Shown piece by piece: positions 1,897-59,963 of a stretch of DNA of 64,000 nucleotides; position 1 is the first letter of the stretch, and each line of letters begins with the position of its first letter. The stretch lies in NCBI GenBank assembly GCA_947629675.1, contig CANREM010000001.1, positions 1-64,000 of the forward strand, in the 5' to 3' direction. The position numbers were made by a program, and so were the translations under genes. A model generated the notes under the pieces. It did no database searches. It worked only from the letters and a program-made list of their open reading frames with translations, and had not been told where the DNA came from. This stretch comes from an uncultured Clostridia bacterium (GTDB taxonomy: Bacteria > Bacillota > Clostridia > Christensenellales > Borkfalkiaceae).

Positions 1897-2808
1897 TCAC
1901 TCCTCTATCTCATCCCCATCAAGAACGAAGGGGCTTCTTACTTTGTTTTTATGTGTCGCCCGCGGATCCACGCTCTTTAAGACGAGGGCGCGGCACTTTC
2001 CGCGGTATCTGCTCCTGGCCCAGAGGCAAAGCTCTCTGCTCTCGAAGGCGGCAAAGACGGCACTCCCCGACCCCGTCATGGAGACGCCGAGCGGGGAAAA
2101 CGCCTTGAGGGCGAGGTATGCCTCGCCGACGGCGGGGAGGATGCTCTTTGCCGCGCCGAAGAGGTCGTTGCCGAAACACTTCGCCGCCCATTCCCCGTTC
2201 CCGCCCCGAAGAAGCGAGACGGCCTCCTCCGTGCGCTTCCCGCCCACGCCTCCGCTCTCATCGAAAGCGGCATACGCCTCCCGCGTGGAGACGCCCTCTT
2301 TGGGACAAAGGACGAGAAAATACATGGGGAAGAAGGGAAGCTCTTCAACGCGTTCCCCCCGTCCGCGGATGCGGGCGAAGCCCCCCCGAAGGAGAAAGCC
2401 GCTATCGCTCCCCAAATCATCCGCAAGCGATTTGATGGCCCCCATGTCCGAAACGCCGTGCAGCCTACCCATGCCCGCGATCACCCCCGCAATATCGGCG
2501 GACGAGCCACCCATGCCCGCGCCGACGGGGATGTTTTTGTAGATGGTGATGTCCGCGCCGAAGCTCTTGAATTTCCCCACGAACGCCTCTGCCGCCTTGA
2601 GGGCATTGTTCTCCTCGGGGGGGATGTCCGACCCGAGGCCGTGCATCCTGACATTCACCAAGTCGTCCTTCCTCTTCCTTATGACGATGCGGTCAAAAAG
2701 GTCCACCGTCGTCACGAGGGAATCGAGCATATGGTACCCCCCCTCCGCGCCGACGATGTCGAGCGTGAGGTTGAGTTTGGCATAGGCGTTGAGCTTGACG
2801 GTGTTCAT
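1897..2808 (-). CDS. ispE: 4-diphosphocytidyl-2-C-methyl-D-erythritol kinase
   Basis: 303 residues, a usual length for IspE, the GHMP-family kinase that phosphorylates CDP-methylerythritol in the non-mevalonate isoprenoid pathway in the cytoplasm. The N-terminal LNAYAKLNLTLDI carries the family's active-site lysine region. The ATP-binding GHMP loop is PVGAGMGGSSAD at about residues 92-103, and a C-terminal MTGSGSAVFA glycine loop is present. I chose the start at 2808 (MNTVKLNAYAKLN) because it matches the family N terminus; a longer frame adds 12 residues of non-conserved sequence. ispE near veg is the Bacillus arrangement. Confidence 0.95.
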   Translation of the reverse strand: MNTVKLNAYAKLNLTLDIVGAEGGYHMLDSLVTTVDLFDRIVIRKRKDDLVNVRMHGLGSDIPPEENNALKAAEAFVGKFKSFGADITIYKNIPVGAGMGGSSADIAGVIAGMGRLHGVSDMGAIKSLADDLGSDSGFLLRGGFARIRGRGERVEELPFFPMYFLVLCPKEGVSTREAYAAFDESGGVGGKRTEEAVSLLRGGNGEWAAKCFGNDLFGAAKSILPAVGEAYLALKAFSPLGVSMTGSGSAVFAAFESRELCLWARSRYRGKCRALVLKSVDPRATHKNKVRSPFVLDGDEIEE

Positions 2809-2815
2809 CCACCCT

Positions 2816-2844
2816 ATTCTACCATGGATCGCGCGCCTTTGCAA
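2816..2844 (-). promoter_or_regulatory. Possible ispE promoter, giving a very short leader
   Basis: On the minus strand TTGCAA, a 17-base spacer and TAGAAT lie with only 7 bases between the -10 box and the ispE ATG. Those 7 bases (AGGGTGG) could act as a ribosome site if transcription starts further upstream, or the message may be leaderless. Confidence 0.45.
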
Positions 2845-2896
2845 GGGTTTTTTACGGAAAATCGGCCGCGGCAGGTCCGCCGCGGCCGGATACGGT

Positions 2897-4375
2897 CTAT
2901 CTTACGAGTGATTTTTTTCTGTAGACGATGACCCGCTGTCCCTCCTTCACAGGGAACTCGATATCGGGGTTGCTCGCCGAGACTTCCTCGGGGGATTTTT
3001 TCAAACTCTTCGCAAGCTCCCACAGCCCGTCGCCCGCGCGGGGGATGTAGACGCTCACCGCACTCTCGCTCATGAGGAGCCGTTCCCCCTCCTCCGCATT
3101 CGCGACAAGGCGAGCGGAGAGAACGCGCTTTTCCTGCAGGGTGATCTTGAGGGTCGCCTCGGCGTCGATCTCCCCTTCCTGACGCTGTCTCGCGGACATG
3201 CCGCACACCAAGACGGTCACAGCCGCATCCTTGGCGTCCACGGGAACGGAGAAGGGAAGGCTGAGTTCCACCCCGCGGTGTCCGCCCTCCGCATCTGCGA
3301 TGATGAGGGTCGCCATGGCGACGCCCTCCACCCTTTTGCCCTCTTCCGTGGAGACGAGGCTCGCCTCCGCCCGCTGCAGGGTGACGGCCTGCAGCACGTC
3401 CGAAAAGGCGATGGGGGAGGAGAGGGCGCACTTGCCCGCGACCCGCTCCGTGAGGCTCACGACATCCCCCACACCCCCGCTCTCCGCCGTCGCAAACGTC
3501 AACGTCGCGTTGTGGGTGGGGGAGAAGGCGTCCGTCACGGCGTCCACCGCCGTCTCCTCGTAGACGCTTCCCTCTGCCGAGAGGGTGATCTCCGCAAAGA
3601 TGCGGCACTTATTTCTCTCCTCGTCTGCCTCGGCGTGGATGGAGACGTTCATCACGCTCACATGCGCCTCCGCACTGCATCCATAGGAGGCAAAGTCGCA
3701 GGGGATGGCGATCTCAAAGGGGATGAGCCGTTCGAAAGAGACGAGCGCGCCGCTCGGCTTTAATGCGAGAATGCCGAGGCTGACTTCCCCCTCGAGTTTC
3801 AGGGTGCCCGTCTCGCAGACGATCTCCGAAAGGTTCACCGTCTCCGCATGCTGCAGAATGTCGCCAATGAATTCCGTCTCGAACTCGTCCTCCGTCTCCG
3901 CTGCCCCCGAGACGAGATGCGCGGAGAGGACTTTGACAGGCTCCCGCCGCATGATGAGATCTCCCCCCGAGAGATATTCGAAGCTCTGTTCGCCGTAGAG
4001 GGCGATGTCCGCCCCGAGGAGGGCCTGTGCGAACACGCTCGCCCCCTCCCGCCGCACGGCGATGTTTTCCACCGACAGAAGGGCGCGGGCGGAGAGTGCG
4101 GGGAAACAGAAGTCGTCCTTTGCGACCGCCGAAAATTCCACCCCCTTCTCCGCGCGGCAGACCTTCTTTTCGGCGTCCTCATAGACGAGGGAAAAGCGCG
4201 CCTTGCCGAAATAGCGCACCTCCCCGTTTCCCGCCTCCGCACCCGTGAGCGCGGCAGAGCAATGCGCCGCGAGGATGGTCTCGACCTCCTGCCCGAACCG
4301 ACATTCCACCGCCGTCTGTGCATGGATCTCCTTGCGCTTGCCATAGCCGCGGAATACCTGTGTTTCCGTTTTCAT
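2897..4375 (-). CDS. SipL-like spore coat morphogenetic protein (DUF3794 repeats plus LysM)
   Basis: 492 residues. The body contains repeated beta-rich DUF3794-type units; each ends in phrases such as SLVYEDAEKK, VNLSEIVCETGTLKLEGEV and ALVSFERLIPFEIAI. The last ~45 residues form a LysM module (YIPRAGDGLWELAKSLKKS then VKEGQRVIVYRKK). This is the architecture of Clostridium difficile SipL, which works with SpoIVA in spore coat assembly on the forespore surface; the equivalence is inferred from architecture. It lies 88 bases upstream of ispE on the same strand and may be partly co-transcribed. Start at 4375 gives MKTETQVFRGYGKRK. Confidence 0.8.
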   Translation of the reverse strand: MKTETQVFRGYGKRKEIHAQTAVECRFGQEVETILAAHCSAALTGAEAGNGEVRYFGKARFSLVYEDAEKKVCRAEKGVEFSAVAKDDFCFPALSARALLSVENIAVRREGASVFAQALLGADIALYGEQSFEYLSGGDLIMRREPVKVLSAHLVSGAAETEDEFETEFIGDILQHAETVNLSEIVCETGTLKLEGEVSLGILALKPSGALVSFERLIPFEIAIPCDFASYGCSAEAHVSVMNVSIHAEADEERNKCRIFAEITLSAEGSVYEETAVDAVTDAFSPTHNATLTFATAESGGVGDVVSLTERVAGKCALSSPIAFSDVLQAVTLQRAEASLVSTEEGKRVEGVAMATLIIADAEGGHRGVELSLPFSVPVDAKDAAVTVLVCGMSARQRQEGEIDAEATLKITLQEKRVLSARLVANAEEGERLLMSESAVSVYIPRAGDGLWELAKSLKKSPEEVSASNPDIEFPVKEGQRVIVYRKKSLVR

Positions 4376-5468: not shown

Positions 5469-5482
5469 ATGACGCGTTTTTT

Positions 5483-5536: not shown

Positions 5537-5575
5537 CCTTTCTGCACCCTATGCCTCGGACATGGTATGCCCGTT

Positions 5576-6481
5576 TTACTTCACATTGTCGAGAATGTCT
5601 AAAAGTTCGGAGAGCCTGTCGAGGTCGTCGCGGGTATAGTAATCGATGTAGATCCTGCCCTTCTTCTCCGTCCCGATGAGGGAGACCTTCGTCTTGAAGG
5701 TCGTGCGGAGACGCTCCACAAGGTGCTTGAGTTCGACGTTGGCGAGGGCGTTCTTCTTCTCCTTGTCCTTCGCGAGGACTTCGGGGGGATTGAGGAAGGA
5801 CTTGACCGCCCGCTCCATATCGCGGACCGACCAGCCGTTCTTCACGCACTCGCGCGCAAGTTCCACCTGCGATTCCTTGGGAAGGGGGACGAGCGTTCTC
5901 GCGTGCCCCGCCGAGAGCTTTCCGTCCTTGACGAGGGCGACGACTTCATCCGCAAGTGTCAGAAGGCGCATGGTGTTCGCGATCGCGGGACGGCTCTTGC
6001 CGATGCGCTCCGCAAGGACCTCCTGCGTCAGATTGTACTCCTCCATGAGCTTTTTCATGCCGTACGCGGCCTCGATGGGGTTGAGATCCTCGCGCTGCAA
6101 GTTCTCGATGAGGGAGATCTCCTGGATCTCGCGGCCGCTCATCTCCCGCACGATGACGGGGATATATTCGAGACCCGCACGCATCGCGGCGCGGTATCTC
6201 CTCTCGCCCGCGACGATCATGTAGGTGCCGTCGCCGTTCTTCTTGACGATGAGCGGGCTGATGACCCCGTGTTCCTTGATGGAACGGGTGAGATCGCCGA
6301 GCGCGTTCTCGTCAAAGAATTTCCGCGGCTGATCGGGGTTGGGGAACACTTTGGAAATGGGCACCTGCGCCGTCGCCTCGCCCTTTTCCTCCGGTTCCCT
6401 TTGTTCCGTCTTTTTTGCCGCGAAGTCGTCCTCCGTCTGGGTGAACAGGGCGGATAGCCCGCGTCCTAAACCTTTCGCCAT
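5576..6481 (-). CDS. parB: Chromosome partitioning protein ParB (Spo0J)
   Basis: 301 residues. ParB is the CTP-dependent clamp that loads at parS, spreads, and recruits SMC to the origin region. The N-terminal nuclease-like domain shows the CTP-binding motif AGERRYRAAMRAG (about residues 92-104) and ENLQREDLNPIEAA. The central helix-turn-helix is around LTQEVLAERIGKSRPAIAN, and the C-terminal dimerisation segment ends LSELLDILDNVK. It follows parA with 3 bases between genes and shares its transcription. Candidate parS sites are at 9588 and 9629. Confidence 0.95.
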   Translation of the reverse strand: MAKGLGRGLSALFTQTEDDFAAKKTEQREPEEKGEATAQVPISKVFPNPDQPRKFFDENALGDLTRSIKEHGVISPLIVKKNGDGTYMIVAGERRYRAAMRAGLEYIPVIVREMSGREIQEISLIENLQREDLNPIEAAYGMKKLMEEYNLTQEVLAERIGKSRPAIANTMRLLTLADEVVALVKDGKLSAGHARTLVPLPKESQVELARECVKNGWSVRDMERAVKSFLNPPEVLAKDKEKKNALANVELKHLVERLRTTFKTKVSLIGTEKKGRIYIDYYTRDDLDRLSELLDILDNVK

Positions 6482-6484: not shown

Positions 6485-7261
6485 TTAATCTCCTTTTCCC
6501 TCTGTTTTTTTCAAAAATTCTTCTGTCAGTGCCTGGTATGCCCGCGCGCCCGCACATCTTTGGTCGTGGAGCAAAATGGGTTTTCCGTGGCTGGGTGCCT
6601 CCGTGAGGCGCACGTTGCGCGGAATGACTGTTTCATAGCGTTTCTTTGTGAAAAATTTCCCGATCTCCGCGGCGACCTGGCGCGAGATGAGCGACCTTCC
6701 GTCATACATCGTGAGTACCACGCCCTCCACTTCCAGCTCCCGGTTGAGGTGCCTTCTGACGAGTGCGATGGTGTTCATGAGCTGCGACAGTCCCTCGAGG
6801 GCGAAATACTCGCTCTGGATAGGAATGAGGACGCTGTCCGCCGCGGTCAGGGCGTTGATGGTGAGAAGCCCCAAAGAGGGCGGGCAGTCGATGAGAATAT
6901 AGTCGAACTTCTCCCGCTCCCTTTCGAGTGCCCCGCGGAGGACCTTCTCGCGATCCTTCTTATAGACGAGTTCCACCTCCGCACCGGCGAGGTCGATGTT
7001 GGCGGCGAGGAGCATCAGCCCCTCGATCTCCGTTTTGAGAAGATTCGCCTGTATGCTCTCCCCGTCGATAAGGACGTTGTAGACGGACTTTTTCAGTCCG
7101 CTCTTTGAGACCCCGAGACCCGTCGTCGCATTGCCCTGCGGGTCGAGATCGAGAAGTAAAACGCTCTTTCCTGCGGCAGCAAGATATGCCGCCATGTTTA
7201 CGCAAGTCGTCGTCTTACCGACGCCGCCTTTTTGGTTTGAGAAGGAAACGACCCTACCCAT
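6485..7261 (-). CDS. parA: Chromosome partitioning ATPase ParA (Soj)
   Basis: 258 residues, the usual length for chromosomal Soj. The deviant Walker A motif KGGVGKTT lies at residues 11-18, the Walker A' aspartate region is VLLLDLDPQGN, and Walker B is YILIDCPPSLG. Soj controls DnaA activity and segregation together with Spo0J. Its start codon at 7261 lies 12 bases from the ftsH stop, and no promoter is visible between them, so ftsH-parA-parB may be one transcript. A copy of the CATGTCCG motif overlaps the start codon. Confidence 0.95.
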   Translation of the reverse strand: MGRVVSFSNQKGGVGKTTTCVNMAAYLAAAGKSVLLLDLDPQGNATTGLGVSKSGLKKSVYNVLIDGESIQANLLKTEIEGLMLLAANIDLAGAEVELVYKKDREKVLRGALEREREKFDYILIDCPPSLGLLTINALTAADSVLIPIQSEYFALEGLSQLMNTIALVRRHLNRELEVEGVVLTMYDGRSLISRQVAAEIGKFFTKKRYETVIPRNVRLTEAPSHGKPILLHDQRCAGARAYQALTEEFLKKTEGKGD

Positions 7262-7273
7262 GTCCGAGACCTC

Positions 7274-9376
7274 TTATTCAGATTTGCCGTCCTCGTCGTT
7301 TTTCGGGGGTATTTCCTCTGTGTTTTGGACATGGTCCTCTTGTTTGCTCACTTCATTTTGCCCTTCGACGGAAGAAGTGGCACCCATGTCCGAAGAAGAA
7401 GCTTTAGATTTGCTATCCTCCGCCTCGATCGCCGCCGCGACCCTTCCGAAGGGGTTGTCGGGTGCGGTGCGGTCATGCTCTTCCATATAACGGATGACCT
7501 CTTCGTAGCTCGCCCCCTTCATGAGCATATCCACTTCGGCGGTGTAGATGGTCTCACATTCGACGAGAACGCGGGCCATGTTGTCGAGAATGGAACGGCT
7601 CTCGAGAAGGAGCTTCTTCGCGCGGGCATAGGCCCTGCCGACAATGGCCTTGACCTCTTCGTCGATGACGCCCGCAGTCTCCTCGGAGTAGGTGTTCCTC
7701 TCCTCGAAGTCGCGGCCGAGGAACACGGGGCCGTCGGAGCTGTAGGCGATGGGGCCGAGACGGTCGCTCATGCCCCACTCGGTGACCATCTTGCGGGCGA
7801 GTTGGGTGACCTTCTGAATGTCGTTGGAAGCACCCGCGGAGACGTCGTGGATGACGATCTCTTCGGCAACACGGCCGCCGAGTGCCATACAGATGAAGTC
7901 GTTGAGACGGTTAACGGTGTAACGGCTGTCGTCGTCCTCGGGACGGGTGAGCGTGTAGCCTGCCGCCATGCCGCGCGGGATGATGGAGACCTCCTGCACG
8001 TTGTCGTTGTAGGGGCAAAGCTTCGCAAGAATGGCATGCCCCGCCTCGTGGTAGGCGGTCGCCTTCTTGTCTGCCTCGGTGACGACGCGGCTCTTCTTCT
8101 GAGGCCCCATCGTGACCTTATTGATCCCCTCGTAGAGTTCAAGGTTTCCGATGAGCTTCTTTCCCACACGCGCCGCCAAAATCGCTGCCTCGTTCAAAAG
8201 GTTTGCAAGATCTGCACCGGAGAATCCGCTCGTCATACGCGCAAGCACCTTGAAGTTAACGTCGGGCGCAAGGGGCTTGTTGCGTGCATGGACCTTCAAA
8301 ATTTGTTCACGCCCCTTAACATCTGGCAAATTCACATAGATCTGTCTGTCGAACCTGCCCGGACGGAGGAGAGCGTTATCGAGAATGTCTGCGCGGTTGG
8401 TCGCCGCCATGACGATGATGCCCTCGTTCGTTTCGAAGCCGTCCATCTGCACGAGGATCTGGTTCAAGGTCTGCTCGCGTTCGTCATGTCCGCCACCGAG
8501 ACCCGCACCGCGTTGACGCCCTACGGCGTCGATCTCATCGATAAAGATGATACACGGCTGATTCCGCTTGGCCAAATCAAATAGGTCGCGCACACGCGAG
8601 GCACCGACACCGACATACATCTCAACGAAATCAGACCCGCTCGCCGAAAAGAAGGGCACGCCTGCTTCCCCTGCGACCGCTCTCGCAAAGAGCGTTTTCC
8701 CCGTTCCGGGAGGGCCGACAAGAAGAACGCCTTTGGGGATCTTCGCACCGAGATCGGAGAACTTCTTGGGATTCTTCAAGAACTCCACGACCTCGGCAAG
8801 TTCTTCCTTCTCTTCCTCCGCCCCTGCAACATCAGAGAAACGCACTTTGATATGCGAGGTGACATGTGCCTTCGTCTTTCCGAAGCTCGCGATCTTGCCT
8901 CCGCCGCTCGTCGCTCTGAGCACGACGATGAACATGATGATACCGACTGCAAGAATGGCAATGTAGAGGAAAGTACTCCATCCCGAACCAGCATTGGGGT
9001 CAGAATAATCAAAATCGTCAAGTTCACGGCCCTGCTCATTTTTGAGCTGCTCCTCCCATTTCTGAAGATATACCTCTGGGAAATAGGCCTGACCATTACA
9101 ATTTGTCCAATACTGCCTGTTGTTTTTGGTATAACCCTTTATTGTATAACCATCCACAACAACGCTAACGATTTGCTCATCATTGCTATACTTGCCGACC
9201 TTCTCTATCGTCTCATCAACATCATCGGAGGCCCACGCATCTAATACGCGTTCCTGGAATTCTTTGAAAGACAGCCTTCGGCTGTTTCGGACCTGGGAGG
9301 ATATGATAAAATAGGCCCCGATGCCGAGAACGGCGACAAGGATCACAGCGATGATGATCTTTGTAGTCTTGCTCAA
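7274..9376 (-). CDS. ftsH: ATP-dependent zinc metalloprotease FtsH
   Basis: 700 residues. FtsH is a membrane-anchored AAA protease that degrades misfolded and regulatory membrane proteins. Visible are two transmembrane helices (about 6-25 and 135-155) around an extracytoplasmic domain, Walker A GPPGTGKT near residue 219, Walker [12 protein letters not shown], the second region of homology including [17 protein letters not shown], and the zinc site HEAGH. The acidic-serine C-terminal tail is poorly conserved and carries the CATGTCCG motif in frame. The start is TTG at 9376, with AAGGAG 9 bases upstream. Confidence 0.95.
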
Positions 9377-9587: not shown

Positions 9588-9603
9588 TGTTTCACATGAA
9601 ACT
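9588..9603. other. parS-like site 1
   Basis: TGTTTCACATGAAACT matches the Bacillus parS consensus TGTTTCACGTGAAACA at 14 of 16 positions and keeps most of the dyad. It lies 2.3 kb from parA. Confidence 0.75.
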
Positions 9604-9628
9604 GCCCCAGAATTTTTTCATTTTTCTC

Positions 9629-9644
9629 AATTTCACGTGAAACA
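9629..9644. other. parS-like site 2
   Basis: AATTTCACGTGAAACA matches the parS consensus at 14 of 16 positions, with a perfect TTTCACGTGAAA core. It is spaced 41 bases from site 1, close to four helical turns. Confidence 0.8.
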
Positions 9645-11743: not shown

Positions 11744-12661
11744 TTATTCTTCGGAGGGCGTTTCCGAAGGGTCATTCTCGGACATGGTAAGCTCGTTTTT
11801 CGTCACGGGGGTCACTTCTTCCTCCTCTTCTTTTCCGAGATAGGTGCCGAAAAATCCGCTGAAACCGCCCTTCTTGTAGCCGGGCGTGGTGCCGCTTGAA
11901 AAGCGCGTTCCGGAGCTTTCGGGGGTGTCCTCTTGGGGAAACTCTCTTTTGCCGTGCGGCTTTCTGTCGCCGCGCTCGCCCCTTCCGCGGCCCCTGCCGT
12001 CGCGGTCTCTGCCGTCCCGCTTGCCGCCACGGCCATCCCGCTTTTCGAAGGGCTTCATGTTCTTGGGGGTGATGACGACGAACCTCGCCGGCTCCTTGCC
12101 CTCCGAGCGCGTCGTGACTTCTTCGCTGTTCAAAAGGGCGGAGTGGATGATGCGGCGTTCATAGGGGTTCATCGGCTCGAGGCGGACGCGCTTGCCCGTC
12201 CTCACAGCCTTTGCAGCGAGCTTTAAGGCGAGATTTTTCAAGGTCTCCTCGCGCTCCTCGCGGTATCCTCCGCAGTCGACGACAACGCGTTTATACTCCT
12301 TCCTGCCCGTGTTGGCGACCGCTCCCGCAAGCACCTGCACGGCGTCGATGACTTCGCCGCGCCGACCGATGATGCCCTTGGTCTCTCCCTCAAGCTCAAT
12401 GACAATCTTCTCTTCCTCGGAGCCGAGGACGGGGTGCGCCTCCGACCCGATGAGGGGGAACAGCCCCTCGAGAAACTTCACCGCGCGCTGTCCGTCCGTG
12501 AGATTTTCTTTGATGACAAGTTCCACTTTCGCGGGAATGGAGCCGAAGAGCTTCTTCTTGCCTTCGTCGAGGACGGTCACCTCGACGTCCTCGCGGGCGA
12601 CGCCGAGCGTCTTCAGCCCGTTTTCGATCGCCTCTTCTACCGTCTTACCATGAAATTCCAT
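11744..12661 (-). CDS. jag: RNA-binding protein Jag (KhpB)
   Basis: 305 residues. An N-terminal Jag domain (MEFHGKTVEEAIENGLKTLG and LFGSIPAKVEL), a KH domain with the loop ETKGIIGRRGEVIDAV, and an R3H domain (EPMNPYERRIIHSAL) are all visible. A long Arg/Gly/Asp-rich disordered tail follows. The start at 12661 begins the conserved Jag domain; the longer frame is not conserved. KhpB binds RNA and affects cell elongation and division. It is the last gene of the rpmH-rnpA-yidD-yidC-jag block. The final 14 residues carry the CATGTCCG motif in frame. Confidence 0.93.
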   Translation of the reverse strand: MEFHGKTVEEAIENGLKTLGVAREDVEVTVLDEGKKKLFGSIPAKVELVIKENLTDGQRAVKFLEGLFPLIGSEAHPVLGSEEEKIVIELEGETKGIIGRRGEVIDAVQVLAGAVANTGRKEYKRVVVDCGGYREEREETLKNLALKLAAKAVRTGKRVRLEPMNPYERRIIHSALLNSEEVTTRSEGKEPARFVVITPKNMKPFEKRDGRGGKRDGRDRDGRGRGRGERGDRKPHGKREFPQEDTPESSGTRFSSGTTPGYKKGGFSGFFGTYLGKEEEEEVTPVTKNELTMSENDPSETPSEE

Positions 12662-12686: not shown

Positions 12687-14240
12687 TTACTTGCGCGATT
12701 TGGTCTTTGATTTCTTCTCTTTATCCTGCTTGTCCTTCCAAGCCAGCCTGTGGCCGTATCTTTCGCGGATCGCGTCATCCTCCTTCTTCTTGAAAACTCT
12801 CCCCAGGATGAGGTTGCAAAGGAGGGTTACGAGGAGGGAGACGACCGAGCTTATGATCATATAGATGGAGAATGCCGCACTGTACATGAACGCGAACACG
12901 CCGTAGATGAGGGGCATCAGAACGAGCATGAACTTCTGCGTCTTTGCGCCCTGTCCGTCCGCCGTCTGATACTTGTTCGCCTCCTTCTGGCTGCGCATCG
13001 TGATGATCTGCGAAAGGATCATCGTGCCGATGGAGAGGATGATAAGGATATAATAGCCGTTATATTGCTTCTTCTGATCGCCGAGCTGAGCGGTAAGACG
13101 AGTATAGTCGAGTGCGGAGATCGCCTTCGCATTGGGGGTGGACTTGGGGACCGGATGACGGTATGTCGCATCCGACTCCCAAACGTTCTTGATCCACAAG
13201 AATCCCATCTTATGGTGGAGATAATACTCCTTCGCCGCTGCCGCGCCCAAACTATCCACATAGTTTCTGCAAAGCGTCGCGATCTCCTGTTCGCTCTCCG
13301 CCTGCTTTGCGGGATCCTCTGCCGCCTTCTGCTCGCTCTCTTCGATGGCGGCAAGGGCGGCCTTGGCGTTCTCGTCCGATTCTTCCTTTCCGAGATAGTC
13401 CTTAAAGAGGTCTAAATCGATGGAATAATTGCGCTTGATATTTTCGGGGGCGACGGGAATAAACTGCGTTTTGACCTTCGCTTCGCCCTCTGCCGCCTCC
13501 GCATTATACGAATAGACGTAGCTGCCGAGAAGATAGCGGTATTGCAGGAAGATCCCCTCACCTTCTGAGGAGACGTCGAGATGCACGACCTTGTTCTCCA
13601 CCGTATCAACGACGGTGCCGTTCTCGTCCTTGATCTCCTGCTCGCCTTCCGACGCATAGACGACCTTGTAAGTGACGCCGTCCTTGCTTTGCTCCCAAGG
13701 GGTCTCCGCTTCGAGCGCGGCATTATCGAGAAGAATGGTGAGTTCGTCGTTGTCGACCCCCTCGATGGGGAGGTGCCAATCTTCTCCGTCGGTAGCATGT
13801 CCGAGGACGACCTCGTTGAACTCGCCCGTCATGTCGACAAACTGCTTCACGTTGGCATAGCGGGAATAGGAGTTGAATCCCTGGAATGCGACGATGAGGA
13901 TGACGAGGGACAAGATCATGGGAAGGCATGCCCCGAACATGCTGTAGCCGTTCTTTTTATACAGCTCCATCATCTTCTGGTTATAGGTCGTCTTGTCGTT
14001 CGCGTACTGCTTTTGCAGCTTGTCGAGGTCATCCTTCATGCCGCGCATGATGAGGGTCTGCTTGCGCGTCTTGTACCTCTGATACACGTCGAAGGGGAGG
14101 GTGATCGCCTTGAGAACGAGTGTAAAGACGATGATGCCGAGACCGATCATCCCGACGCCTTCGATGATCGCGCGCGCAAATTTCCCTAAAAAGTCCAGCC
14201 CCGCGAGCGAGGAGCTGATCACGGTATAATCGATTGCCAT
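12687..14240 (-). CDS. yidC: YidC/Oxa1 membrane insertase with large extracytoplasmic insertion
   Basis: 517 residues, about twice a typical Gram-positive YidC (SpoIIIJ about 261). The conserved core is present: TM1 with LKAITLPFDVYQRYKTRKQ, a cytoplasmic charged hairpin (about 60-100), MFGACLPMILSLVILIVAF as TM2, and three C-terminal hydrophobic segments from about residue 385. Between TM2 and TM3 lies about 250 residues of acidic, soluble sequence (about 130-380), facing outside by family topology. It inserts membrane proteins with or without SecYEG. Spacing to yidD (17 bases) and jag (25 bases) indicates an operon. Confidence 0.92.
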   Translation of the reverse strand: MAIDYTVISSSLAGLDFLGKFARAIIEGVGMIGLGIIVFTLVLKAITLPFDVYQRYKTRKQTLIMRGMKDDLDKLQKQYANDKTTYNQKMMELYKKNGYSMFGACLPMILSLVILIVAFQGFNSYSRYANVKQFVDMTGEFNEVVLGHATDGEDWHLPIEGVDNDELTILLDNAALEAETPWEQSKDGVTYKVVYASEGEQEIKDENGTVVDTVENKVVHLDVSSEGEGIFLQYRYLLGSYVYSYNAEAAEGEAKVKTQFIPVAPENIKRNYSIDLDLFKDYLGKEESDENAKAALAAIEESEQKAAEDPAKQAESEQEIATLCRNYVDSLGAAAAKEYYLHHKMGFLWIKNVWESDATYRHPVPKSTPNAKAISALDYTRLTAQLGDQKKQYNGYYILIILSIGTMILSQIITMRSQKEANKYQTADGQGAKTQKFMLVLMPLIYGVFAFMYSAAFSIYMIISSVVSLLVTLLCNLILGRVFKKKEDDAIRERYGHRLAWKDKQDKEKKSKTKSRK

Positions 14241-17267: not shown

Positions 17268-17728
17268 ATGACGCGACGGAAAAAATTTGCGCCCTCACGG
17301 GACACAGAGAACTTCCCGAAAACTTCGACACGAACGCCCTCTACGACACGCTCGAAAAACTCATCGGCGAGGGGTATACCTACTTTTGCTGCGGCATGGC
17401 GAAGGGATTCGACCTCGTCGCCCTCGAATGTCTCGTGGACCTCAAACAGCGGTACCATGTCCGCATCGAGGCTTGTATTCCCTATGCGGGGTACGAACAT
17501 GGTATGCCCGCCGCGGGCAGGAAGAAATACGAGATGCTCCTCTCGTGGTGCGACGAAAAGAACGTTCTGTCCCCCGCCTTCTTCAATGGCTGTTTTCTTG
17601 CGCGCGACCGCTATATGGTGGATAAAGCCGATCTTGTCCTCGCCTATTGCAAGCGCGCGACGGGGGGAGCGGCCTATACCGCAAGGTATGCGGAAAGGAG
17701 CGGAAAGGAAGTGTACTTCCTCGAATGA
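17264..17728 (+). CDS. SLOG family protein (DUF1273/YpsA-like)
   Basis: 154 residues. The Rossmann-like SLOG signature is visible: CALTGHRELPENF at the N terminus, FCCGMAKGFDLVALE in the middle, and ADLVLAYCKRATGGAAYTARYA near the C terminus. These folds are proposed to bind nucleotides or nucleotide-derived ligands; Bacillus YpsA affects cell division. The start overlaps the rsmG stop by 4 bases, so it is translationally coupled to rsmG. Confidence 0.8.
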   Translation: MNDATEKICALTGHRELPENFDTNALYDTLEKLIGEGYTYFCCGMAKGFDLVALECLVDLKQRYHVRIEACIPYAGYEHGMPAAGRKKYEMLLSWCDEKNVLSPAFFNGCFLARDRYMVDKADLVLAYCKRATGGAAYTARYAERSGKEVYFLE

Positions 17729-17880
17729 ATAAAATTTTTAAGAATATCTCGGCACCTCGTCCTCGGACATGGGTGCTTTATTTTTCGTCATGTTTTCCCA
17801 AATTCTCTCAAACTTCGACAAAACACGCGCAGGAAAAACCTTTATAATCATACAAAAAACCTTGCAAAGGGGAGGGATCC

Positions 17881-18849
17881 ATGGCGTACGAAAAGCGCGT
17901 CTGCGTACTCAGACAGATCAAGAAGGGATTTTCCGCCGACGGGAGCGAGCTTTCGGGTGCGGTCTACTGCGAGAGGCTTGGAAGCGAACTCACCGTGACC
18001 CCCCGTATCCTCGGCATCGCCCCCGTGAAGGAGGGCCGCTACGTCCTCGCCATCCGCGCGGAGGGGGAGACAGCCCTTCTGGAACTTTGCGGAAATTCTC
18101 CTTTAAAAGTGAAGAGTTTCCCCTCCGTCAAGGCGGGTTTTTGCGTCCTTCTCGCATTCATGCGCGGGGAAGCGGAGCCGATCGCATTCGGCAGTTGCGG
18201 TGCGGAAAAAACGCACTATTCTACCCTTCTGGCCGCTTTTTCGCAGGAGAAGAGAAAGAAAAGAGACCCTCTTCCGCCTCCGCCCGATCCCGATAGGACC
18301 CCCATCCCGCTCTCGCCGAATACCCCCATTTTGCCGCAGGAGGAGGACCGTCCCTTTCGCGAGGAGGCCGCCGCAAGATATGACGACGAGGCCATTGCAG
18401 ACGTCAACTACTTCGGCGATGCGGGCGATGACGATGGGGAAACTGTGCCTCACCGTCAAGATGGCGAAAAGGAGAAAAAGGACGGGCAGAACGCTCCGCC
18501 TCATGCAGGCGATGAAATGCTCCGTCCGCGCGGCACGCTTACATACTATAACAGCGTCCGGGAAAAACTCGAGAGAGTCTTGAAAACCTTTCCCCGCGAT
18601 GAGAGACTGAAAGACATCTTCCCGAACTCGGAATGGGTGAAGGCGGACAAAAGCCTTCTCGGCGTCATCTATGAGGAGGGGATCCCGAAATATCTGTGTG
18701 TTGCGGCGGAGGATTCCGAGACCCTCCCGCCCGCCATGAAGGAACACGGGTGTTTCGTTCCTGTAAGCCCTCTCTCGGACATGGTGGGGGTGTACGTTGT
18801 CTTTCAGTCCGCCGACACCGGAGAGTATGTGACTGTTTCATCGGGCTGA
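17881..18849 (+). CDS. Hypothetical protein with disordered linker
   Basis: 322 residues. The start at 17881 follows GGGGAGGGATCC. An N-terminal globular beta-rich domain (about 1-118) is joined by a Pro-, Asp- and Lys-rich linker (about 125-215) to a C-terminal domain (about 220-322) that includes YNSVREKLERVLKTF and LSDMVGVYVVFQSADTGEY. No signal peptide or membrane helix is seen, so it is probably cytoplasmic. I do not recognise a named family. The CATGTCCG motif occurs in frame near its C terminus and again in the intergenic region upstream (17764). Confidence 0.75.
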   Translation: MAYEKRVCVLRQIKKGFSADGSELSGAVYCERLGSELTVTPRILGIAPVKEGRYVLAIRAEGETALLELCGNSPLKVKSFPSVKAGFCVLLAFMRGEAEPIAFGSCGAEKTHYSTLLAAFSQEKRKKRDPLPPPPDPDRTPIPLSPNTPILPQEEDRPFREEAAARYDDEAIADVNYFGDAGDDDGETVPHRQDGEKEKKDGQNAPPHAGDEMLRPRGTLTYYNSVREKLERVLKTFPRDERLKDIFPNSEWVKADKSLLGVIYEEGIPKYLCVAAEDSETLPPAMKEHGCFVPVSPLSDMVGVYVVFQSADTGEYVTVSSG

Positions 18850-21236: not shown

Positions 21237-21372
21237 TTGCGTCAACCTGAGGCGTTTTGTCTATACCATGTCCGAAAGAGCCCATCCCCAAAGGATCCCG
21301 AAGTACGAAGTCCGTAAGCCCTCCCCCTCGGTGCGGGGGAGGGTGTCACGGCTTTGCCGTGACAGATGGGGT
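21237..21372. repeat. Family A fragment joined to a family B double hairpin
   Basis: GTCAACCTGAGG and AAAGGATCCCGAAGTACGAA fragments precede CCCTCCCCCTCGGTGCGGGG and GTCACGGCTTTGCCGTGAC, the two hairpins of family B. A CATGTCCG motif lies at 21267. Confidence 0.6.
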
Positions 21373-43667: not shown

Positions 43668-44351
43668 ATGGATCACATGGCGGAAAAAAACAACAAGGTC
43701 TACATTTCGGGCGAGATCGTCTCCGAGGCCACCTTCTCACACGAGGTCTACGGCGAGGGATTTTACGAATTTTTCGTGCGCGTCATGCGCCTTTCGGGAC
43801 AGGCAGACATCCTTCCCGTCACCATCTCCGAGCGTCTCATCCACAGCAGTGACTTAAAAGTGGGCAGTACCCTCTCCGCGGTGGGGCAGTTCCGCAGTTA
43901 TAATAAATTGGAAGGGGGCAGATCCCGCCTCATGCTCACCGTCTTTGTGCGTGAACTTGTCGAGGCGGGCGAGGGGAAGAACCCCAACGGCATCGTCCTT
44001 TCGGGCTACATCTGCAAGCCTCCCATCTACCGCACTACTCCCTTCAACCGTGAGATCGCCGATCTCCTTCTCGCCGTCAACAGGGCGTACAACAAGTCGG
44101 ACTACATTCCCTGCATCGCATGGGGCCGCAACGCCCGCTTTGTGCAAAATCTCAAGGTGGGGGACAGGGTCGCACTCTCTGGCAGGATCCAGAGCCGGGA
44201 ATATCAGAAGCGTCTTTCGGAGGAAGAGACGGTCACCATGACCGCGTACGAGGTCTCCATTTCCAAGCTCGCCGCCTTCGAAGAGGGGGAGCGGTTTGAC
44301 CTCGAGAGCGAGTTCGACCTCTACACCCTTCCGCACGACGGGGCGATTTGA
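43668..44351 (+). CDS. ssb: Single-stranded DNA-binding protein with two OB folds
   Basis: 227 residues. Two OB-fold units are visible: one starting NKVYISGEIVSEATFSHEVY, the second NGIVLSGYICKPPIYRTTPF, which contains the family phrase REIADLLLAVNRAYNKSDYIPCIAWG. This two-domain form is known in Clostridia as an SSB-like protein. The start at 43668 is chosen because GGAGG lies 12 bases upstream; the earlier ATG at 43650 overlaps that ribosome site. The tail lacks the acidic DDDIPF-type end of canonical SSB, so it may be an accessory paralogue. Confidence 0.8.
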   Translation: MDHMAEKNNKVYISGEIVSEATFSHEVYGEGFYEFFVRVMRLSGQADILPVTISERLIHSSDLKVGSTLSAVGQFRSYNKLEGGRSRLMLTVFVRELVEAGEGKNPNGIVLSGYICKPPIYRTTPFNREIADLLLAVNRAYNKSDYIPCIAWGRNARFVQNLKVGDRVALSGRIQSREYQKRLSEEETVTMTAYEVSISKLAAFEEGERFDLESEFDLYTLPHDGAI

Positions 44352-47717: not shown

Positions 47718-48566
47718 TTATATCCTGAACAGCTTGAAGAGCGCATTCGCAAGCAATGTTGCGGCACCGACAAGAAGGAACCAGCGGAGGAAGTACAGAC
47801 CCGTGTTATCGGGCAGAAAGACGAAAACAAGGTATACCATGCCCGCGACAAGCCCTCCGATCGGGATGCGGAGGAGCCGTTTCCACGACCACTTCGGTGC
47901 CTCATACCGAAGGAGAGAAGTGAGCGGCATAAAGACGGCCGCACCCGCCAGAAGTCCTCCCGTCATCAAAAGGTCCTTTTCGGGGAAGAAGGGGATAAAA
48001 CAGATGACGGCGGCGGCAAAAAAGAGCATGATGAGGTGTCGGCTGCGATAGGCATAGCGGAAGATGATCTCCCAAAAGACGGCGACCGCAACGCCGAGCG
48101 CAAGTCCCGCCAAAAGGTCGGTGGGGTAGTGCACACCGAAATACAGCCTCGAACAAAGGATGAGCAGGATGAGGGGGATCGTAAGCAGCCACATCCACCA
48201 CTTTTTCAGCCGGAGGCTGCTGCCGACGAGGGCGGCGGAGGAGGTCTGCGCATGCCCGCTGGGGAAGGAGAGGAAGTCCCCGAGTTCCCTTGTCGAAAAG
48301 ACGGGCGTGTCCACATCCAGCCGCTCCACCACGCCTTTCACATACGGCCTCGGCCGCGCCACCGTCACCTTCAGGACGCTGTTGAGTGCCGCCGAAGAGA
48401 CGGCGGTAAAGAGGAGTTGTTCGCCCGCCCTTCCCCACAGCCAATAGAGCAGAATGACGATGCCCGACACGATCATCCCCTCGCCGAGGGTGGAAAAGAT
48501 CCCGAACACCACGGTGAGTGCGGGCGAGCGGATGCCTTCGAAGAATTTGAGTATGATTTCGTCCAT
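47718..48566 (-). CDS. PAP2-superfamily membrane phosphatase
   Basis: 282 residues with about seven hydrophobic helices. The acid phosphatase signature is complete: KVTVARPRP (motif 1), FPSGHAQ (motif 2) and SRLYFGVHYPTDLL (motif 3). Members dephosphorylate lipid phosphates such as undecaprenyl pyrophosphate or phosphatidate at the outer face of the membrane. The substrate is not clear here. A TATAAT box ends 6 bases ahead of the ATG at 48566 (minus strand), so the message may be leaderless. Confidence 0.88.
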   Translation of the reverse strand: MDEIILKFFEGIRSPALTVVFGIFSTLGEGMIVSGIVILLYWLWGRAGEQLLFTAVSSAALNSVLKVTVARPRPYVKGVVERLDVDTPVFSTRELGDFLSFPSGHAQTSSAALVGSSLRLKKWWMWLLTIPLILLILCSRLYFGVHYPTDLLAGLALGVAVAVFWEIIFRYAYRSRHLIMLFFAAAVICFIPFFPEKDLLMTGGLLAGAAVFMPLTSLLRYEAPKWSWKRLLRIPIGGLVAGMVYLVFVFLPDNTGLYFLRWFLLVGAATLLANALFKLFRI

Positions 48567-51857: not shown

Positions 51858-52229
51858 ATGAGGAGTGAAAAGCTATCTGCACGGGAGAACGCGGTCATGG
51901 GTGCCATCTTTTCGCTCTCACAGGGGAAGGAACGCTTTCTCGTCTCCCCCTATGAGATCCTCGCGGTCCTCCCCGAAAAGGGAAAGTACGACGAAGAAAA
52001 ATTGGAGCGCATCCTGCACGCACTCGAGATCGACGGTTACTTCGAACTCATCTTTTCGGACAGGAAGGGGGAAAAGACGTACTGCATCCACATGCGCGAG
52101 GCGGGGCTTGCCTTCCGAAGACAGGACATCCAGCGAAGGCGCGACACGGTCTTGCGTCTCCTCTTTGCGGCGGTATGCGGGCTTCTCTCCGCCGCGATCG
52201 GTATCCTTCTCAAAGCGATCCTATCCTGA
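51858..52229 (+). CDS. Winged-helix-like protein with C-terminal membrane anchor (copy 2)
   Basis: 123 residues. The layout matches copy 1: an N-terminal helical domain (ILAVLPEKGKYDEEKLERIL, then YFELIFSDRKGEKTYCIHM), a basic linker (FRRQDIQRRRDTVLR) and a terminal hydrophobic helix. The start at 51858 lies in GTGTGATATG, directly after the copy 1 stop. The two are probably co-translated and may form a pair. The function is unknown. Confidence 0.65.
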   Translation: MRSEKLSARENAVMGAIFSLSQGKERFLVSPYEILAVLPEKGKYDEEKLERILHALEIDGYFELIFSDRKGEKTYCIHMREAGLAFRRQDIQRRRDTVLRLLFAAVCGLLSAAIGILLKAILS

Positions 52230-55400: not shown

Positions 55401-55404
55401 AAAA

Positions 55405-55560
55405 TGGAGGAAAAAGGCTTCCCCCTTGAAAGGGGGAAGCTGTCACGAAGTGACTGATGAGGGTTAGTTCCCAAAAAGGTCGTTCATCGTCCCTCATCCG
55501 TCACGGCAAGGGCGGCCGTGCCACCTTCCCCCATGGATGGGGGAAGGCTTCCAACGCCTT
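55405..55560. repeat. Two family B units in inverted orientation
   Basis: CTTCCCCCTTGAAAGGGGGA with GTCACGAAGTGAC and TGATGAGGG is one unit. From 55491 CCCTCATCCGTCACGG with CTTCCCCCATGGATGGGGGA is the other, reversed. A CATGTCCG motif follows at 55571. Confidence 0.65.
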
Positions 55561-55600
55561 CTCCCCATACCATGTCCGCGATATAACATCGAAAACTACC

Positions 55601-58414
55601 ATGAAAGACTACATTTTTGTCAAGGGTGCAAAAGAGAACAACCTCAAGAACATCGACGTGAAGATCCCGCGGGACAGCCTCACCGTCTTTACGGGGCTTT
55701 CGGGCAGCGGGAAGTCTACGCTCGCCTTCGATACCATCTTTGCCGAGGGACAGCGGCGGTATATGGAGAGCCTCTCTTCCTACGCCCGTCAATTCCTCGG
55801 CATGATGGAGAAGCCGAATGTGGAATATATCGACGGTCTCTCTCCGGCCATCTCCATCGATCAGAAGACGACCTCGCATAACCCCCGTTCCACCGTGGGG
55901 ACGGTCACCGAGATCTACGACTATCTCCGCCTCCTCTTTGCGCGCGCGGGAACGCCGCACTGCCCGAATTGCGGCAGAGAGATCCGCCGTCAGACGGTGG
56001 ACGAGATCGCCGACCGCGTCATGGGCATGCCCGCGGGGAGCAAGATCCTCCTTCTCGCCCCCGTCGTCCGCGGCAAGAAGGGGGAGTATAAGAAGGAACT
56101 CGCCTCCTACCGCAAGAGCGGCTTTGCCCGCGTGAAGATCGACGGCATCATCTACGATCTGCAGGAAGAGATCGCCCTTGAAAAGAATATCAAGCACAAC
56201 ATCTCCGTCGTCGTGGACAGGTTGGTCGTCAAGGAGGGCGTCCTGAAGCGGCTCACCGAATCGCTCGAGACCGCCTTGAAACTTGCCGACGGACTTGTCT
56301 CCGTCGATTGCGAGGGGGAGGAGACCCTCTATTCCTCCCGCTACGCCTGCCCCGATTGCAACATCTCCATCGAGGAGATCGAGCCTCGCCTCTTCTCCTT
56401 CAACACCGTCTGGGGAGCTTGCCCGACCTGTTCGGGCCTCGGCTTCACGCAGAAGGTGGACGACGGTCTCATCTGTCCCGACCGCACCAAGTCCCTCCGC
56501 GACGGGGCAATTAAGATCAGCGGCTGGAACCTCGACAGCTCCTCGGTGACGCAGGCATATCTTGCCGCCCTCTCCCGCCACTTTGGCTTTTCTTTGGACG
56601 TCCCCGTAAAGGACCTTCCCGAGGGGGTGTACGACATGCTCATGTATGGCAGCGGCGACGAGAAGATCGAGATGGATTACAGCACCAAGACCTTCCACAC
56701 CCACTACCGCGCGCCGTGGGAGGGGTTTGTGAGAAATCTGCAGCGCAGGTACGAGCAGACCTCCTCGGTGAGCGTGAAGTGGGACATCGAACGCTACATG
56801 CGCACCGCAGACTGCCCGGACTGCAAGGGGAAACGTCTCAAGCGCGAGGCCCTCGCCGTCACGGTGGGGGAAAGGAACATCGCCGAAGTGTGCGACATGC
56901 CCGTGCGCGCCATTCTCTCCTTCCTCGAAGGACTGCAGCTCTCGCCGACGCAGCACGCCATCGCGGACGGCATTCTCAAGGAGATCCGCGCCCGCCTCAA
57001 CTTCCTTGCGGGGGTGGGGCTGGACTATCTCACCCTGTCGCGCAGTGCGGCGACGCTCTCGGGCGGGGAGAGCCAGCGCATCCGCCTCGCCACGCAGATC
57101 GGCTCCGCCCTCTCGGGCGTCCTCTATATTTTGGACGAACCCTCCATCGGACTTCACCAGAGGGACAATCAAAAGCTCCTCACATCGCTGAAGGGGCTTC
57201 GCGACCTCGGCAACACCCTCATCGTCGTCGAGCATGACGAGGAGACGATGCGGGCGGCGGACTTTATCGTGGACATCGGCCCCATGGCGGGCGTGCATGG
57301 GGGAGAGGTTGTCGCCTGCGGCAGCGTGGAGGACATCATGAACTGCCCCGCATCCATCACGGGGGACTTTCTCGCAGGACGGAGAAAGATCCCCGTTCCC
57401 GCCGTGAGAAAACCCTCGGACGGACGCTTCCTTCGCGTACATGGGTGCCGCCAAAACAATCTGAAGGGCATCGACGTCGCCATTCCCGCGGGGCTGATCA
57501 CCCTCGTCACGGGGGTGAGCGGATCGGGGAAATCCTCCCTCGTCAACGAGATCATCCTTCCCATCCTTGCAAACAATCTGAACGGGGCACGCCTTCCCAC
57601 GGGCAAGGCGGACAGCTTCGAAGGGCTGGAATATTTTGACAAAGTCATCGCCATCGACCAATCGCCCATCGGCCGCACGCCCCGCTCCAACCCCGCGACC
57701 TATACGGGCGTGTTCACTGCCATCCGCGAACTCTTCGCCGCGACGACAGACGCCAAGACGATGGGCTTCAAGGCGGGAAGGTTCTCCTTCAACATCGCGG
57801 GCGGCAGGTGCGAAAACTGCGAGGGGGACGGCATCATGAAGATCGAGATGCATTTCCTTCCCGACGTCTACGTCCCCTGCGAAGTGTGCGGCGGCAAGCG
57901 TTATAACCGCGAGACGCTCGAAGTAAAATATAAAGGGAAGTCTATCTCCGACGTCCTCGAGATGACGGTGGAGGAGGCGTGCGAGTTTTTCAAGAACCAG
58001 CCCTCCATCTACAATAAGATCAGGACGCTGAATGAGGTGGGGCTGGGCTATATCAAGCTCGGCCAAAGCTCGACGACGCTCTCGGGCGGCGAGGCACAGC
58101 GGGTGAAGCTCGCGACAGAGCTTTCCAAACGCCCGACGGGAAAGACGGTGTATATCCTCGACGAACCCACGACGGGGCTTTCGAGCTACGATGTGGAAAA
58201 GCTCGTAAAGATCCTTCTGCACCTGCGCGAGAGCGGGAACACGGTCATCGTCATCGAGCATAACCTCGACGTCATCAAGATCGCCGACCACATCATCGAC
58301 CTCGGTCCCGAGGGGGGAGACGGCGGCGGCACGGTCGTGGCCGTCGGCACCCCCGAAGAGATCGCCGCCTGCGACCAGAGCTACACCGGCCAATTTCTGA
58401 AAAATCTCCTGTAG
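55601..58414 (+). CDS. uvrA: UvrABC system protein A
   Basis: 937 residues, a typical UvrA. UvrA recognises DNA damage and recruits UvrB. Two ABC ATPase units are complete: Walker [14 protein letters not shown] and [13 protein letters not shown]; signatures [20 protein letters not shown] and [16 protein letters not shown]; Walker [12 protein letters not shown] and [11 protein letters not shown]. Zinc-binding cysteines are at CPDCNIS with CPTC, and CENCEGDG with CEVCGG. The start at 55601 ([15 protein letters not shown]) matches the family; no ribosome site precedes it. It may be read with uvrB, although repeats lie between. Confidence 0.96.
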
Positions 58415-58439
58415 CGGCCTTGGAATGAGGAAGCGGAAC

Positions 58440-58740
58440 GATCGCGTCATCCTGCCCCGAATTGCCAATACGCAGTCCTCGCGAGAAATTCCCTGAAGGA
58501 TCCCGAGGATGAAAACACGGACTTTGATAAACGACAATCCATTCTAAAATTCGTCATGCCGAGCGTAGTCGAAGCATCACCTTATTATAATCGGACTTCG
58601 TATGAGGGGGTTCTTCGGAGAGGTGCTTTTACGGAAAGCCGTATTTACTTTATCGGCTACTTCGTACTAAAGTGCTTGTGCCGCGCTTAGTCTACAAATA
58701 GAAACTTTGCGCGGGGCAGAATGACGCTTCCCCCTGACCC
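58440..58740. repeat. Family A elements after uvrA
   Basis: CGTCATCCTGCCCCG, then AGGATCCCGAGGATGAAAAC (shared with 4650 and 27860), CGTCATGCCGAGCGTAGTCG, and a right part with AGTCTACAAATAGAAACTTT before GCGGGGCAGAATGACGC (shared with 19230). The gene-less interval 58415-58781 holds only these. Confidence 0.65.
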
Positions 58741-58781
58741 CTGATCCCTCACACACATCACGACAATAAAGAGAGGCTTAT

Positions 58782-59963
58782 ATGTTCAATCAAGAATTGC
58801 AAAAGTTAGGCGCGGAGCATTCCGCCATCCGCGAATTGTTCGAATACGCGATCAAAAGAAAGAAGGAGATCGGCGAGGAGAACGTCTTTGATTTCTCCCT
58901 CGGCAACCCCAATGTGCCCGCCCCCGCCTGCGTCACGGAGGAACTTCTTCGGCTTATCAACGAGATGCCGCCCGAAAAGCTGCACGCCTACTCTTCCTCG
59001 GCCGGCATTCAGGAGGTCCGCGCAGCCATCGCACAGTACATAGAGAACTCGTTTGGGGTACCCATGTCCGAGGATCTCATCTGCATGACCTGCGGCGCGT
59101 CCGCCTCTCTCGTCAGCGTCCTCTCCGCGCTCGTCCTGCCCGGGGAGGAGGTCATCCTGCCCGCGCCCTATTTTCCCGAATACACCGTCTTTATCGGCCA
59201 ATCCGGCGGAAAGATGGTGCCCGTTCCCACGGATGAAAAGTTCCACCTCGACCTTAGTGCCATCGAGCGGGCCATCACCGAAAAGACGAAGGCGATCCTC
59301 ATCAATTCGCCCAACAACCCCACGGGCGCGGTGTATACAAGGGGGGAACTCGAAGGCCTTGCCGCGCTCCTCGAGAGGGTGAATCGTACGCGTCAAGAGC
59401 CGATTTTCCTCCTCTCAGACGAGCCGTACCGCGAGCTTTGCTACGGGGAAAAGCCCACCTTCCCTCCGACCGTCTATCCGCACACCGTTGTCATGTATTC
59501 CTTCTCCAAGGTCATCTCTCTCCCCGGGGAGCGCATCGGCTATGTCGCCGTTCCGCCCGCATGCTATCATGCGCAGGATCTCTTTCACGCCGTCCGCGGC
59601 GCGGCGCGCCACCACGGCTTTGTATGCGCACCCACCCTCTTCCAGCGTGTCGTCGCACACTGCCAGGGGATGACGAGCGACCTTGAGATCTATCGGCGCA
59701 ATCGCGACCTTCTGTATGGGGCACTCACGGACATGGGGTACTCTTGCACCGTCCCGGAGGGGGCATTCTTCCTCTTTGTGAAGGCGTTGGAACAAGATGC
59801 AAAGGCGTTCTGCGCGCGGGCAAAAAGACATGAATTGCTCCTCGTGCCCTCCGACAGTTTCGGCACAAAGGGGTATGTCCGCATTTCCTACTGCGTGAAA
59901 CGGGAGACCATCGAAAGAAGCCTTCCCGCCTTCCGCGCCCTCATACAGGAATACAACGGCTAA
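58782..59963 (+). CDS. Class I/II PLP-dependent aminotransferase
   Basis: 393 residues, the normal size. The PLP lysine lies in YSFSKVISLPGERIGYV, and other fold-type I phrases are INSPNNPTGAVYTRGEL, LSDEPYRELCY and the N-terminal FSLGNPNVPAP. The family moves amino groups between amino and keto acids; the aspartate aminotransferase-like subgroup is likely but the specific substrate is not readable. The start at 58782 follows AAAGAGAGGCTTAT. It stands alone. Confidence 0.85.
   Translation: MFNQELQKLGAEHSAIRELFEYAIKRKKEIGEENVFDFSLGNPNVPAPACVTEELLRLINEMPPEKLHAYSSSAGIQEVRAAIAQYIENSFGVPMSEDLICMTCGASASLVSVLSALVLPGEEVILPAPYFPEYTVFIGQSGGKMVPVPTDEKFHLDLSAIERAITEKTKAILINSPNNPTGAVYTRGELEGLAALLERVNRTRQEPIFLLSDEPYRELCYGEKPTFPPTVYPHTVVMYSFSKVISLPGERIGYVAVPPACYHAQDLFHAVRGAARHHGFVCAPTLFQRVVAHCQGMTSDLEIYRRNRDLLYGALTDMGYSCTVPEGAFFLFVKALEQDAKAFCARAKRHELLLVPSDSFGTKGYVRISYCVKRETIERSLPAFRALIQEYNG

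Follow-up and report, generated by a model that had tools for sequence, protein, structure and literature searches.

A degenerate 45-bp element dispersed over the chromosomes of a Borkfalkiaceae genus: a candidate recognition site for a chromosome-handling protein

The Noc sites of Bacillus and Staphylococcus are described as about 70 copies of a 14-bp palindrome, scattered over the chromosome, sparse in part of it and read by a ParB-family protein, and the 24-52 SlmA sites of E. coli are also scattered unevenly along the chromosome (PMC4726725); both sets are under-represented around the terminus (PMC4726725, PMC6549158). RacA sites (ram) of B. subtilis are dense near the origin and present elsewhere too (PMC6593407). 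Another kind of dispersed site, the uptake signal sequences (USS) of Haemophilus and the DNA uptake sequences (DUS) of Neisseria, combines a strong short core with weaker flanks and occurs in many copies (1,465 and 1,892 core copies) (PMC7811141). Here we describe an element of about 45 bp with the core CCATGTCCG, found in a 64,000-bp stretch of DNA from an uncultured Clostridia bacterium of the Borkfalkiaceae (GCA_947629675.1, contig CANREM010000001.1, positions 1 to 64,000; "the window") and in other members of its genus, and tentatively propose that a protein acting on the whole chromosome reads it.

The window is an origin region, with dnaN, rnpA, yidD, a yidC-type gene, jag (Jag_N and R3H), parA and parB recognized by domain, and ftsH named as such in an initial annotation of the sequence. 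Like the Noc and SlmA sites, the element is scattered over the chromosome and sparse in part of it, with a reader that is here only predicted. Unlike the Noc sites, it has more than 250 copies in the genome that holds the window (G000), is asymmetric and spans about 45 bp; the SlmA sites, in contrast to this asymmetric element, are palindromic and have a TetR-family reader. No report of the CCATGTCCG motif in this group was found among the literature matches listed, and an Rfam search of the window gave no match.

The core word and the wider element

The initial annotation drew attention to 22 copies of the 8-mer CATGTCCG in the window, where composition would predict two or three. All 22 positions are exact to the base, and 100 dinucleotide shuffles of the window give a mean of 2.14 copies and a maximum of 7. 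The excess holds genome-wide: G000 (1.57 Mb in 37 contigs, rated 91% complete; the window is G000:C1:1-64000) contains 348 copies (167 forward and 181 reverse) versus 8 (3 and 5) of the reversed word. The extension of the 8-mer that had been noticed is also real. The 9-mer CCATGTCCG occurs 87 times in a 462-kb sample versus 4.3 expected, and 257 times in the whole genome versus 2 for the reversed control; it is the dominant word and the real core. Its one-letter variants are mostly near background in the same sample, the main exceptions being CCATGCCCG (35 versus 7.8 expected), CCATGTCTG (10 versus 1.8) and CCATGTCCA (12 versus 2.4). As an over-represented, clade-specific word of the octamer class, the core resembles HIP1 of cyanobacteria, which is palindromic and denser.

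In aligned copies, CCATGTCCG is the strongest part of an asymmetric, degenerate element of about 45 bp, with GAC(G/C) at -18 to -15 (A at -17 in 61-76% of copies), an A/T step at -12 to -10 relative to the core, (T/A)(A/C)CCATGTCCG(A/C)(G/A)(A/G) around the core, and a TC..GAAA-like stretch at +19 to +25. The flank pattern recurs in the related genomes G009, G016 and G041, and less cleanly in G050 (position weight matrices are similar in five genomes). A flank-only model trained on 71 sites of G016, G050 and G041, with the bases adjoining the 9-mer excluded, separates 87 sites of G000 from 825 control-word sites with an area under the receiver operating characteristic curve of 0.94 (p = 1.6e-41). 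The three core variants listed above often have good flanks too, and elements are therefore more numerous than exact copies. When the window was scanned for elements scoring above 14, 17 of the 22 exact copies passed and nine variant-core copies were added, whereas the reversed sequence gave none. The lower density described for 40-64 kb in the initial annotation thus applies to the exact copies, of which three lie there, but not to the variant-core copies, of which there are eight.

Maintenance of the copies

G000 and G009 can be aligned over 148 kb at 79.5% identity. In this alignment CCATGTCCG is retained at 18 of 26 G000 sites and 18 of 22 G009 sites, where flank identity predicts 4.7 and 5.2; as a control, 330 of the 1298 sites of 400 permuted words are retained (25%). 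Sites are intact within diverged protein tails, for example those of FtsH and Jag, and several intergenic sites are unalignable between the two genomes. Within predicted genes the 9-mer occurs 70 times, versus 18.2 (standard deviation 3.7) in 200 synonymous shuffles and 6.2 in codon-order shuffles. The difference between the two kinds of shuffle indicates that the proteins already favour the word, and two reading frames dominate (encoding M-S in the sense direction or D-M in the antisense direction), as a codon or protein-sequence preference would predict; but the observed count far exceeds that of the synonymous shuffles, and the upstream flank is common to the main frame classes and the intergenic copies, position -17 being A in 55-82% of copies, whether intergenic or in any of the four main frame classes. 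Codon use, named in the initial annotation as an explanation that would dispose of the motif, is not borne out, and such a preference is hardly credible as the source of the element. The selection at the DNA level that was suggested there agrees with the cross-species retention, the excess over synonymous shuffles and the shared flank: from sequence comparison, the copies look maintained by selection.

Twelve sites in alignable DNA are not shared by G000 and G009, and 11 of these align without a gap within 25 bp, which indicates point changes; each of four G009-only sites shows a one-base difference. Unlike REP and RPE repeats, the element therefore does not seem to have arrived by insertion at these places, and a mobile-repeat origin was rejected for copies in alignable DNA. 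Such a repeat, small, REP/RPE-like and inserting both within genes and between them, is suggested by some intergenic copies of G000 that sit inside REP-like repeats with TACGAAGTCC relatives, and unalignable intergenic copies (e.g., those at 5557, 17764 and 21267) lie beyond an empty-site comparison. As an explanation of the element at large it is nevertheless very improbable: 98 of 117 sampled copies lie within predicted genes, and G009 and G016 carry the motif, but the REP family is not among their top words.

The 98 genic copies of the 8-mer, placed by our own approximate gene calls, are divided between the sense (48) and antisense (50) strands; of the remaining copies 17 are intergenic and two partial, at a coding density of 85%. 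A transcription regulator with a large regulon, one of the possibilities raised in the initial annotation, would account for the few copies at gene starts and in leaders (the parA start; upstream of the gene called uvrA). Since intergenic DNA is not enriched in copies (19 of 117 are intergenic or partly so, versus about 15% non-coding DNA), this too has very little to recommend it. Site spacing is compatible with random placement (coefficient of variation 1.15; simulated 0.80-1.23), with mild overdispersion by 10-kb bin (variance/mean 1.6).

Three observations on individual places may be recorded. An open frame of about 8907 codons (G000:C2:273-26996) has just two copies of the 8-mer in 27 kb. 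A stretch of G041 (locus L198, 14809-14877) contains three copies at exact 30-bp spacing and reads as a repeated S/P-D-M-D peptide. One copy (locus L001, near 7161) lies, by eye, within the loop of a terminator-like hairpin.

Carriers, chromosome map and candidate readers

The 41 members of the genus have from 7 to 333 copies. A survey of 151 genomes of the order found the combination of at least 130 copies and a tenfold excess over the reversed control nowhere but in this genus; mild cases outside it are G151 (49 copies versus 0 of the reversed word), G149 (32 versus 2) and G173 (29 versus 0). In three other families of the order (f11, f22 and f4), some genomes have 56-104 CCATGTCCG copies, about three to five times the count of the reversed word. 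In a midpoint-rooted tree of three proteins from 22 genomes, with some weak branches, motif-rich genomes occur in at least two places, and G012, with 11 copies, groups with the motif-rich G050, G041 and G046. The motif has therefore likely been lost or has decayed more than once within the genus, as far as the tree can tell.

The sites are unevenly distributed over the chromosome. Origin/FtsH loci of 14-20 kb from 22 genomes contain 58 sites versus 26.9 expected from each genome's own average (50 versus about 23.6 without G000). In the seven richest genomes (G000, G009, G016, G050, G046, G002 and G041), these loci contain 42 sites versus 19.4 expected, the ftsZ block 2 versus 16.2, and the dnaG block 5 versus 17.4. 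The latter two blocks were selected because G041 had a desert there (one site from 94 to 219 kb of contig C2 and two on the 94-kb contig C4, the other contigs examined being ordinary), and some of their stretches in G016, G050, G000 and G009 were already known before counting; seven ftsZ/dnaG loci chosen before their counts were known (L222-L228) contain one site versus 11.0 expected. Composition is not the source of the uneven map, because the Markov-2 expectation is nearly equal in the three locus classes (0.0117, 0.0108 and 0.0112 per kb; GC 56-59%). Of the 14 genomes with 53 copies or more, 12 have an 8-mer within 800 bp after the parB stop; the eight genomes with fewer than 40 all lack one there. 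The high density near the origin is like that of the RacA ram sites, a likeness of density alone (PMC6593407).

Sites resembling parS (up to two mismatches) occur in all 22 origin loci, separate from the element, which differs in sequence from the TGTTNCACGTGNAACA palindrome read by ParB; judged by these matches, the sites of ParB are its own and of another kind. A terminus placed at the C2/C4 junction of G041 from converging gene strands was withdrawn when further stretches showed strands that do not converge. A scan for dif-like sites with a dif consensus gave one match, at the limit of 8 mismatches, which was not taken as dif, and of the dyad 28-mers common to loci L015 and L144 there were three pairs, none convincing.

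A chromosome-handling protein is favoured because the copies look selected, crowd near the origin and are rare in some other blocks. The element may be the recognition site of a sequence-specific DNA-binding protein that acts on the whole chromosome, in nucleoid organisation, origin segregation or the coupling of nucleoid and division; our confidence in this falls a little short of even. The predicted reader would bind the asymmetric element, many weakly selected sites would act jointly, and the uneven site map itself might be the function, as with the sites of Noc, SlmA and RacA. An origin-peaked, uneven map is the trace to be expected of such a protein, because Noc and SlmA sites thin out around the terminus and those of RacA are concentrated near the origin. 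The nucleoid or segregation protein suggested in the initial annotation is thus the best fit, given the enrichment at oriC and just after parB, but not its suggestion of Noc: a second ParB was rejected as the reader, as ParB_N gave a single match per genome in the seven richest genomes (G000 being 91% complete), a further difference from the Noc systems. More speculatively, though we consider it quite possible, the element could belong to a new chromosome-addressing system, in which a protein reads it at about 140-330 places, anchored next to parABS and kept from large blocks, and organises or occludes the nucleoid without Noc, the whole having been lost repeatedly in the genus.

The strands are balanced. 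The lack of orientation bias relative to the origin that was stated at the outset is seen in the first 164 kb of contig C1 of G000 (28 sites on the plus and 24 on the minus strand), in the 448-kb contig C1 of G041, which starts near the origin (40 and 40), and across the G041 genome (117 and 115). Chi- and KOPS-like signals are polar, and for that reason do not fit this balance. A recombination or DNA-processing signal of some other sort (resembling Chi, labelling DNA as self against a defence nuclease, or linked to methylation) could explain a word that is over-represented, conserved and species-variable, but base preferences reach to 17 bp upstream and about 24 bp downstream of the core, farther than is expected of such short signals, and this family of explanations is improbable.

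Balanced strands are also a property of an uptake signal, the main rival: element-bearing DNA would be preferred, and biased uptake with recombination would multiply the element, as for the USS of Pasteurellaceae and the DUS of Neisseriaceae. The strong short core with weaker flanks is like that of the Haemophilus influenzae USS (PMC7811141), relatives differ by point change, copies are in genes and between genes alike, and copy number is graded across species. ComEC is present in 39 of the 41 genus genomes, but does not separate motif-rich from motif-poor ones, and the motif-rich G041 has pilus genes (PF00482 and PF00437). However, the pilus inner-membrane protein PF00482 is absent from the other six of the seven richest genomes (G000, G009, G016, G050, G046 and G002, three of them rated 99% complete), which weakens the case for uptake; none of the six has a convincing PilB/PilT/ComGA ATPase (PF00437), with one marginal match in G002, and nine of the 11 genus genomes that do have PF00482 have 35 copies or fewer. 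The motif-rich G153, which was outside the PF00482 search, has one clear PF00437 match. The uneven map with its peak at parABS is likewise unlike that of the USS and DUS, as is the core copy number, 257 versus the numbers in Haemophilus and Neisseria, and the consulted portions of PMC7811141 name only Pasteurellaceae and Neisseriaceae with such preferences. An uptake signal is accordingly unlikely, though a serious contender. ComEC, being far more widespread in the genus than PF00482, may act apart from pilus-driven uptake.

Several observations weigh against a chromosome-handling protein. No reader protein was found, and the replication terminus was not located, so that a depletion at the terminus is unproven. 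The roughly 250 sites exceed the counts given in PMC4726725 for Noc (about 70) and SlmA (24-52), and the element is not palindromic. The copies near parB in G015 and G005 have weak flanks; the dnaG block of G015 is not depleted (at least 8 sites in 120 kb versus about 5 expected), and the poor blocks of G000 and G009 are poor only partly, their mapped stretches containing 8 sites (80 kb) and 7 sites (120 kb). Conservation by codon position at in-frame copies, proposed as a check in the initial annotation, turned out weakly positive, with fourfold-degenerate positions in the core barely more conserved than those nearby (22 of 30 versus 277 of 442). Several motif-poor species live without the element. 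Certain sites are common to different clades by descent, and the genomes are therefore not fully independent.

Elements of the window and their significance

Around parB (5576-6481, minus strand; PF02195 and PF17762), the neighbour of the recurrent origin-proximal site, the window contains an element with its core at 5557, 11 bp after the parB stop (5537-5584, minus strand, score 37.7), which is unalignable in G009. The element at the junction of the parA start and the ftsH end (core at 7259; 7239-7286, plus, 28.2) is kept in G009, and similar sites are found in G055, G046, G002 and G050. A further element (core at 7385; 7365-7412, plus, 35.5) lies in the C-terminal tail of the protein that the initial annotation names FtsH; its core is kept in G009 although the surrounding tail has diverged. 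The element in the C-terminal tail of Jag (core at 11779; 11759-11806, minus, 45.1) is also kept in G009. Two parS-like palindromes (9588-9644, no strand), at 9588 and 9629, have two mismatches each in G000; a perfect one is present in 17 of the 22 origin loci.

Other genic elements retained in G009 are those of the YidC-type (60KD_IMP) gene, of which the 8-mer is kept (core at 13796; 13776-13823, plus, 15.2), the YpsA-family gene (17456; 17436-17483, plus, 29.2) and the gene at 17881-18849 (18776; 18756-18803, minus, 32.9). The core at 2443, an exact CATGTCCG (2423-2470, plus, 19.6), is kept in G009 as well, and is followed by a variant element with the core CATGCCCG at 2470 (2450-2497, plus, 17.8). 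The C-terminal tail of a CmpB-like protein (PF06541) carries an element with its core at 26439 (26419-26466, plus, 31.4). Intergenic elements have cores at 17764 (17744-17791, minus, 33.2), unalignable in G009, at 21267 (21247-21294, plus, 24.4), at 27749 (27729-27776, plus, 18.2) and at 55571, the last called intergenic and upstream of the gene annotated as uvrA (55551-55598, plus, 19.4). The remaining elements with exact cores are at 23969 (23949-23996, minus, 18.2), 35827 (35807-35854, minus, 19.7), 59063 (59043-59090, plus, 25.1) and 59728 (59708-59755, minus, 17.1).

The variant cores of the second half of the window are CATGTCTG (41608-41655, plus, 14.1, at the cut-off), CATGACCG (44217-44264, plus, 24.1, and 51872-51919, minus, 23.9), CATGCCCG (47818-47865, plus, 22.3; 62129-62176, minus, 14.9; and 63730-63777, minus, 22.2) and CATGTACG (57416-57463, minus, 17.5), along with a weak CATTTCCA at 44258 (44238-44285, plus, 14.2, at the cut-off) that overlaps the element with its core at 44237. 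Five exact 8-mers score below the cut-off, without the wider element around them, and could be chance occurrences: 3193-3200 (minus) and 8485-8492 (plus), both lost in G009 and probably due to chance, 25533-25540 (plus), 30728-30735 (plus) and 36409-36416 (minus).

The element at 21267 adjoins a REP-like repeat. This family of words (TACGAAGTCC, TACGCAGTCC and GTCATTCTGAG/GTCATCCTGAG) has 16 TACGAAGTCC copies in the window and 56 in the 462-kb sample, with window positions at 792, 5039, 19050, 21304, 26537, 26577, 35559, 41240, 43290, 43517 and others; it is among the top words of G012, in contrast to G009 and G016. Overlapping 12-mers in the G000 sample, 17-18 times each, appear to spell a longer repeat from GTTTGAGAGCC to GATGTAAC, CRISPR-like by its look.

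Few lineages are known to have dispersed recognition sites across the chromosome, and in each of them a different protein reads the sites. We know of no uptake signal in Firmicutes; if the element were one, it would be the first, and would require an uptake route without the usual pilus. With relatives of 333 and of 7 copies in one genus, a comparison of gene content should expose the reader, whose identity would reveal whether this group evolved nucleoid occlusion or origin anchoring anew.

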